64,000 nucleotides of DNA, from positions 1 through 64,000 of the forward strand of contig LJTT01000011.1 in the NCBI GenBank assembly GCA_001303585.1, read 5' to 3'. Under the pieces are notes generated by a model, which searched no databases, was not told where the DNA came from, and saw only the letters and a program-made list of their open reading frames with translations. The position numbers and the translations under genes were made by a program. The stretch is from Betaproteobacteria bacterium SG8_41. Lineage in GTDB: Bacteria > Pseudomonadota > Gammaproteobacteria > Burkholderiales > SG8-41. Below are positions 1,802-3,380 of this stretch, one piece after another; the first letter of the stretch is position 1; the number at the start of each line of letters is the position of its first letter.

Positions 1802-2110
1802 ATGAAACCAATGGATTACAAGGATTTCCGGCATTCACTGAAGGGCTCCCGTCCGCCGCGGGGGCTTCCGGTGCTGCTGCGGGCCCTGTGGTACGACGCC
1901 AAGGGCGACTGGGATCGCGCGCACGGCCTCGCGGCGGCGGAGCGCAATGCGGCGGCGGCGCGGGTCCACGCCTACCTTCACCGGAAGGAGGGCGACTCGG
2001 ACAATGCGAACTACTGGTACGCGCGCGCGGACGCCGAGCGACCGCATGCCAGCGTTGGCAAGGAGTGGGAGGCGCTCGTGCGCAGATTGCTGGAAAAGGG
2101 CGAGTCTTGA
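1802..2110 (+). CDS. conserved hypothetical protein (~102 aa)
   Basis: MKPMDYKDFRHSLKGSRPPRGLPVLLRALWYDAKGDWDRAHGLA..., start inside the 1628..2110 ORF; resembles a widespread small 'KGDWDxAH...VHAYLHRxEGD' hypothetical family. Confidence 0.7.
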   Translation: MKPMDYKDFRHSLKGSRPPRGLPVLLRALWYDAKGDWDRAHGLAAAERNAAAARVHAYLHRKEGDSDNANYWYARADAERPHASVGKEWEALVRRLLEKGES

Positions 2111-2114
2111 TTAG

Positions 2115-2378
2115 AACCTATTTCATATATAGGCGCGTGATGCGTTGTAGCCAGGACGGAGCGGATGCAAGGCGCCCGACGAAGGCCATATGTCGATATG
2201 GTCCAGGAGGGCAATGACGCAGCCGACTGTCCTGGCAGCAACCCGGAGGGACGGGGCGATCCGGGCGCATTTCTTCGTCGGGGACCCTCGAAATATCGAC
2301 ATATTCCTTCGGGCCCTCCTCCTTGAACTGCATCCCACATCGCCTCCGTCGCACACGTGCCTATATATGAAATAGGTT
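2115..2378. mobile_element. MITE-like non-autonomous palindromic element, 264 bp
   Basis: 20-bp perfect terminal inverted repeat AACCTATTTCATATATAGGC (25 bp with one mismatch); flanking TTAG on both sides (2111-2114 and 2379-2382); internal inverted core ATATGTCGATAT (2188-2199) / ATATCGACATAT (2293-2304). Confidence 0.8.
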
Positions 2379-2489
2379 TTAGTGAGCGGTGAGTCGGGTA
2401 ATCCCGCTCCTTGGAATTCTGGGCGCCGCAGCTCCTCGCCCCGGGTTTCCCGACATGCGTTGCATTCTCGGCGGTGATATTAGGGTGGC

Positions 2490-3380
2490 TTGGCGATGAG
2501 CACGCTGAACATTATTGGTGCGGGAAGGGTGGGCCGCGTCTGCGGGCGCCTCTGGGCAAAGGCGGGCGTCTTCGAGATCCAAGACGCGCTTACCCGCTCC
2601 CTGGAGAGCGCCCGTGCTGCGGTGCGATTCATCGGGACCGGGCGGGCGGTCGGGGCGCTGGGCGAGATGCGTGCTGCCGATGTCTGGATGATTTCCACGC
2701 CTGACGATGCGATCGCAAGGACCTGCGAGGCACTGGCCAGATCGGGGAAGCTGGCCCCGGACAATATCGTGTTCCATGTCAGCGGCGCGACGCCCTCATC
2801 CGAGCTTCGATCGGCAAGGCAGCTCGGAGCTCTGACCGCGAGCGTGCACCCGATCAAGACTTTTACCGAGGCCGAGCCCGCAGCGCAAACATTCGACGGG
2901 ACCTATTGCAGCGCCGAGGGCGATCAGCAGGCGCTGCGGCTGCTCAAGCCCGCTTTCGAGCGCATTGGTGCACGGCTCTTTGATATTGCGCCCGATCTGA
3001 AGAGCATTTACCACGCCGGGGGAGTCTTTGCCTGCAACTACCTGACGGCGCTGATCGAGGCGGCCCTGAGATGCCATGAGAAGGCCGGCATTCCGCGTGC
3101 CGCGTCGCTGCAGGCGCTCGAGCCGATGGTACGCGAAACCTTGGACGCGATCTTCAAACAAGGCCCCGGGGCGGCGCTTTCGGGCCCGGTCTCTCGCGGC
3201 GATGTGGCGACGATCCAGCGCCAGCTGGCGGTGGTGGAGGACTGGGATCGGCACCTGGGCGGCTTGTACCGCGGCCTCGGCCTGCTGACGGTCGCGCTTG
3301 CCGAGGCCGACGGCCGCCTCGACGCAGCGCGCGCGGCGGCGTTGCGCCAGGCGTTTTCGATTGAGGGCAAGGTGAAATAG
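2490..3380 (+). CDS. Rossmann-like / DUF2520-domain protein (NADP oxidoreductase-like)
   Basis: N-terminal NIIGAGRVG; HVSGA..., SVHPIKTF and YHAGGVFACNYLTAL motifs typical of DUF2520 proteins; start may be 2490 or 2496. Confidence 0.85.
   Translation: MAMSTLNIIGAGRVGRVCGRLWAKAGVFEIQDALTRSLESARAAVRFIGTGRAVGALGEMRAADVWMISTPDDAIARTCEALARSGKLAPDNIVFHVSGATPSSELRSARQLGALTASVHPIKTFTEAEPAAQTFDGTYCSAEGDQQALRLLKPAFERIGARLFDIAPDLKSIYHAGGVFACNYLTALIEAALRCHEKAGIPRAASLQALEPMVRETLDAIFKQGPGAALSGPVSRGDVATIQRQLAVVEDWDRHLGGLYRGLGLLTVALAEADGRLDAARAAALRQAFSIEGKVK

Follow-up and report, generated by a model that had tools for sequence, protein, structure and literature searches.

A multicopy MITE with a predicted two-armed fold, inserted at YTAR sites across several families within a single order of betaproteobacteria

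The locus and its element

The window analysed in this study is a 64,000-nucleotide stretch of contig LJTT01000011.1 from Betaproteobacteria bacterium SG8_41. Near its start, a short MITE-type element separates two genes, and the following features were assigned:

1802..2110 (+): upstream gene encoding 102 aa that match no Pfam family, with its TGA stop at 2108-2110
2112..2113 (no strand): left-hand TA of the target-site duplication, within TTAG (from copy comparison and the empty site of a related copy)
2114..2134 (+): left TIR, GAACCTATTTCATATATAGGC (from inverted-repeat matches and copy alignment)
2135..2143 (+): left extension of the outer stem, predicted to pair with the right end (helix 1: both sides changed in 15 of 30 pairs)
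2144..2243 (+): predicted first hairpin arm, GTTGT-AGCCAGGACGG ... CATATGTCGATATG tip ... CTGTCCTGGC-AGCAAC (limits approximate)
2244..2348 (+): predicted second arm, GACGGGGCGA ... AATATCGACATATT tip ... TCGCCTCCGTC, together with a small CCCGGAGGG hairpin (limits approximate)
2358..2379 (-): right TIR, the outermost base (2379) being T
2380..2381 (no strand): right-hand TA of the target-site duplication (from copy comparison)
2496..3380 (+): downstream gene, DUF2520 / Rossmann-like protein, which adjoins the upstream gene, element-free, in relatives

The upstream ORF has 71-75% nucleotide identity in six relatives, and this conservation indicates a real gene. A single base separates its stop codon from the target TA, in agreement with the first-pass annotation, which had placed the element directly after that stop with TTAG starting at 2111. 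The terminal repeats described there were likewise found: AACCTATTTCATATATAGGC occurs in perfect copies at 2115-2134 (+) and 2359-2378 (-), an inverted repeat for which shuffles of the window predict 0 matches, and the TIR is perfect over 20 bp and 93% identical over 28 bp. The TTAG letters on each flank (2111-2114 and 2379-2382) and the 264-bp interval between them were read correctly, although the comparison of copies below places the ends of the MITE at 2114 and 2379, giving a length of 266 bp. No transposase is encoded inside, as had been claimed, with no Pfam domain above threshold in any ORF of the MITE and one sub-threshold chance match. An AT-rich composition is a usual, if not essential, trait of bacterial MITEs; it was not found in this element, which has a GC content of 57% (62% in its interior and 33% in the TIR, compared to 63% for the window).

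Copies and distribution of the family

A BLAST search of the source genome recovered three full copies and one solo end, the window copy included, with the other two full copies being 93% and 92% identical. The solo end (G000:C10:10577-10607, or L012 1578-1608) immediately follows the TAA that ends a beta-ketoacyl-synthase-like gene, and its interior is replaced by a short palindrome. Related copies were detected in 23 of the 100 genomes searched by BLAST. In a congener, G001 (matching record VGID01, a Betaproteobacteria MAG, in contig numbers and coordinates), 56 exact ends were counted versus 0 for the reversed pattern, and the collected set from it comprises 18 full close-type copies, a diverged one and two shortened derivatives. 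Diverged full-length copies (approximately 70-77% identical) occur throughout the host family, and related elements are present in other families of the same order (genomes G095, G116, G218 and G284). The TIR core of the multicopy family is GARCCTRTYTCA. Overall, the window element is a genuine multicopy MITE with copies in relatives, and the non-autonomous, MITE-type nature proposed in the first-pass annotation is supported.

In total, 68 distinct insertions of 34 to 680 bp were collected at dispersed, unrelated sites; most measure 268-272 bp with both TAs counted, and a bare hairpin form of 50-60 bp recurs. Long elements in G218 and in G053 have inner hairpin modules in common. The longer relatives (412-680 bp) hold extra nested hairpin modules (L242 838-1517, L237 1501-2047, L241 1106-1517, L136 1050-1465), and one such module, GGAGCAGGGGCCCC...GGTCGCATCC...CCTGCTCC, is common to different host families. 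At the other extreme, derivatives of roughly 27-34 bp are essentially a pair of TIR tips abutting each other between TAs (L147 616-649, L060 5617-5643). No copies of the MITE were found on plasmids or, in an exact 18-mer search, on viral contigs. The family is apparently undescribed so far in betaproteobacteria: apart from two chance matches, the TIR appears in no relevant paper of the library searched.

Target site

The first-pass annotation had interpreted the flanking TTAG as a 4-bp target duplication, and this interpretation was ruled out by the comparison of copies. The end 4-mers of the copies in the source genome are TTAG/TTAG (window), TTAG/CTAG and CTAG/CTAA, and equal 4-mers were seen in only 12 of the 37 distinct insertions that have TA at both ends. 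Of 26 aligned copies, 25 have C as the final base of the TIR and only the window copy has T; therefore, the apparent TTAG repeat of the window results from a change of C to T at 2379. The general pattern is YTA-GAACC...GGTTC-TAR, with hyphens at the element boundaries, the constant parts being TA, G...C and TA. In the 37 insertions the outer bases are distributed as cTAg (11), tTAg (10), aTAg (5), cTAa (4), tTAa (3) and others (4). Judged from these alignments, the target duplication is a 2-bp TA in a YTAR context.

An empty site, the further check proposed for the element, was resolved to the base for one related copy. The site of a 54-bp copy in G218 is empty in G284, where a single TA is present and the alignment gap of 52 bp falls exactly there; in the filled site the left TA now reads GA. 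For the window copy the evidence is syntenic, since the two neighbouring genes lie side by side, element-free, in four relatives; relatives are about 74% identical here, and their intergenic DNA is too diverged for base-level alignment. Two more empty-site candidates (L243/L292 and L234/L285) fit a TA at a divergence that precludes a base-exact reading.

Landing at stop codons

When elements were removed in silico, the target TA often proved to belong to a stop codon, TAG or TAA. Because the element starts with G after the TA, such a stop is rebuilt as TAG and the protein is unaltered. The exact stop-codon position accounts for 11 of 29 non-coding insertions versus 71 of 425 (17%) background YTAR sites (p = 0.01), and for 11 of 25 long elements (p = 0.002), all counts resting on a simple home-made gene caller. 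Relative to the gene, 5 elements have the same orientation and 6 the opposite one. The enrichment is moderate, about threefold, and is partly due to YTAR containing TAR; purging of intragenic insertions is expected to account for another part. The window copy itself has its target one base past the TGA stop, not within it.

Two-armed fold and covariation

The interior of the element had been described as self-complementary, with the whole folding as one long hairpin. The complementary tracts are present, ATATGTCGATAT and ATATCGACATAT being located at 2188-2199 and 2293-2304, and the single hairpin was ruled out: both the predicted and the covarying fold consist of a TIR stem bearing two separate arms, each of which is closed by its own tract of the ATATGTCGATAT type. 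Folding is far more favourable than in shuffles for both strands (z = -9.4 and -10.4). Across 26 aligned copies, 95.5% of the cells in 92 pairs are paired, and 54 of the 92 pairs changed on both sides, including 20 of 33 in the first arm (helices 2-5) and 19 of 29 in the small hairpin and second arm (helices 6-10). The structure was derived from the same sequences, which biases the paired-cell share more than the double changes. Double-change cells numbered 260 versus 32-49 in slid structures; shuffles averaged 70, and 0 of 500 shuffles matched the observed alignment on any covariation measure; relatedness of the copies inflates the shuffle control and is retained in the slid controls. Combined, these comparisons indicate that the predicted two-armed fold is conserved, and unusually well so, across many genera despite sequence change.

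How the fold is maintained was considered from the kind of changes observed. Among pairs in which a Watson-Crick state is the commonest, 240 double-change cells stand against single-sided intermediates of 81 wobble (42 G-U and 39 A-C) and 62 other cells. Since G-U and A-C intermediates are equally common, the fold does not appear to be kept as a one-strand RNA. Selection at the DNA level, templated correction, or transcription from either strand (copies occur in both orientations) could each maintain it.

Two alternative explanations bear directly on this fold. The strong covariation over genera and the location at or just past stop codons would also suit a structured RNA or 3'-end element, such as an mRNA stabiliser or RNase III site, that was conserved and spread for its fold. 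This reading is very improbable, however, given the TA at both ends with clean insertion at a TA, the nearly even orientations relative to the gene, the strand-neutral intermediates noted above, and the length range of 34 to 680 bp; additionally, the window element has no Rfam match, and terminator-like or promoter-like sites were looked for in it and none were found. A quite different possibility concerns the fold only, namely that the covariation is unselected and that template switching in a quasi-palindrome rewrites mismatches from the opposite arm. The large, strand-symmetric excess of double changes over single-sided intermediates is what such rewriting would leave, and the idea is a serious, if tentative, contender; against it, unpaired columns and bulges persist at fixed positions throughout the family, whereas unrestricted correction should have removed them.

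Partner transposase and proposed mechanism

An IS with the same TIR had been suggested as a further check, and none with the whole TIR was found: among the PF01609 and PF13358 loci of MITE-bearing genomes, no element combines the full TIR with a transposase gene. G095 and G116 have no PF01609 match at all, suggesting that mobility there may be past or that the partner is of another kind. The comparison with coresident IS gave no full match; L117, a member of the NF033580 group in a host-family genome, has a tip, GAGCCTGTTATGGAC (GAGCCTGTT compared with GAGCCTGTTTCAT in MITE variants), with about nine bases in common with those variants. NF033580-type IS5 elements (relatives of L117 and L125, on annotated plasmids) follow the same YTA-G...C-TAR grammar with a 2-bp TA duplication, including cases with unequal 4-mers (L311 CTAA, L313 TTAA, L248 CTAA, L308 ATAG). 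G001 itself holds an NF033580 element, L125, with matching flanks; its exact CTAG target means that 2-bp and 4-bp duplications are not separable there. The transposase of L125 (1099-1920) is split near an A9 run, possibly a programmed frameshift, and the element sits at the base of a hairpin.

Several other candidates were rejected. The IS5 copies of the source genome, L118 and L123, were ruled out by their ends, since their TIR is GAGCSCCTAACAAAATGA and their target duplication appears to be 3 bp long (TNA). Both (L123 1451-2352 on contig C29, L118 162-1063 on contig C35) belong to the IS5 family and encode DUF4096 and DDE, seemingly split over two frames. DDE_Tnp_1 transposases of G218, G284 and others were also looked at and rejected. 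One transposase ORF in G284 lies beside a MITE end; it is attributed to a scaffolding artefact because 100-N gaps stand between the two and because the orthologous element of G218 occupies the same site without the ORF.

The preference for an IS5-type partner, which rests on the shared target grammar and tip similarity of NF033580 elements, has to be weighed against mobilisation of the same MITE by a transposase of the IS630 / Tc1-mariner type (PF13358). IS630 / Tc1-mariner transposases are the classical makers of TA duplications. In the IS630 family (ISY100, IS630) TA is duplicated, and IS630 prefers TA in CTAG (PMC2170065); the 2-bp TA duplication and YTAR/CTAG preference of the MITE would fit. 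However, the IS630-type loci of the host family and of f19 have other inverted repeats (e.g., TAGTGTGCCGTCCCGTTA, TAGCAGCCTGTCGG), the MITE TIR is in none of the IS630-type loci fetched, and G000 and G053 hold copies yet have no PF13358 match. An IS630-type partner is considered the main rival, though an unlikely one.

The preferred explanation, to which a probability of roughly 0.7 is given, is a non-autonomous, two-armed TA/YTAR MITE moved in trans, most likely by a transposase from the NF033580 group of the IS5 family. A DDE transposase recognising GARCCTRT tips would cut and paste the MITE in trans, and the NF033580 group is the probable source because its own elements use YTA-G...C-TAR. 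Where a TAG or TAA stop supplies the target TA, insertion would leave TAG and the same host protein, and this rebuilding, together with purging of intragenic insertions, would lead to copies at or just past stop codons. The fold would be kept at the DNA level or regardless of strand, rather than as a one-strand RNA, through selection on the mobile lineage or templated repair between the arms. A more ambitious version is doubtful: that the fold itself is needed for mobility (e.g., with cruciform or single-strand forms being recognised), with compensatory change across the order and a stop-codon safe harbour provided by the first-base G.

Comparison with known systems

With this element, a large and apparently undescribed MITE family, found across several families within a single order of betaproteobacteria, joins the TA-ended repeats already on record. 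Correia/NEMIS, ERIC and RUP elements (PMC2229807) are similarly small, multicopy and TA-ended, with TIRs and stable stem-loops; they differ from the MITE in sequence, host and size (about 100-200 bp vs. 266 bp), and the MITE, unlike them, has a GC-rich interior (62%) and a two-armed fold that covaries over many genera. The CIR repeats of Caulobacter and Brucella are also TA-ended and have 5' and 3' parts that form independent long stem-loops, whereas they are listed without TIR and come from unrelated hosts (PMC2229807). MITEAba12 (PMC6382973) resembles the MITE in having only the TIR in common with its proposed IS, and differs in its 113-bp length, 9-bp duplication, named partner (ISAba12) and near-identical copies. 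The IS630 / Tc1-mariner elements (ISY100, IS630; PMC2170065) share the TA duplication and CTAG preference, and differ in that the MITE TIR was in no IS630 locus fetched from these hosts.

The points worth following are the wide, strand-neutral covariation of an element without genes and its landing at stop codons. The former raises the question of whether a gene-less mobile element that keeps an RNA-like fold with no strand preference does so by selection or by templated correction, and the latter whether stop codons serve as harmless landing places for G-starting, YTAR-targeting elements. Together, the TIR and the target grammar provide a concrete handle for finding the missing transposase.

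The NF033580 group of IS5, which we take to be IS427-like from the ISfinder grouping, is close in target and ends, with a YTAR target, a duplicated TA, a G start and a C end as in the MITE; its elements differ in carrying a transposase, in being about 830-870 bp long, and in their inner TIR (ATGGACTT vs. TCATA in the MITE). Additionally, a deposited 869-bp circular 'plasmid' of Sphingomonas parapaucimobilis (L245, NZ_CP155770.1) was observed to be a bare IS5 whose ends abut as CTAG/CTAG, and is possibly an IS circle.
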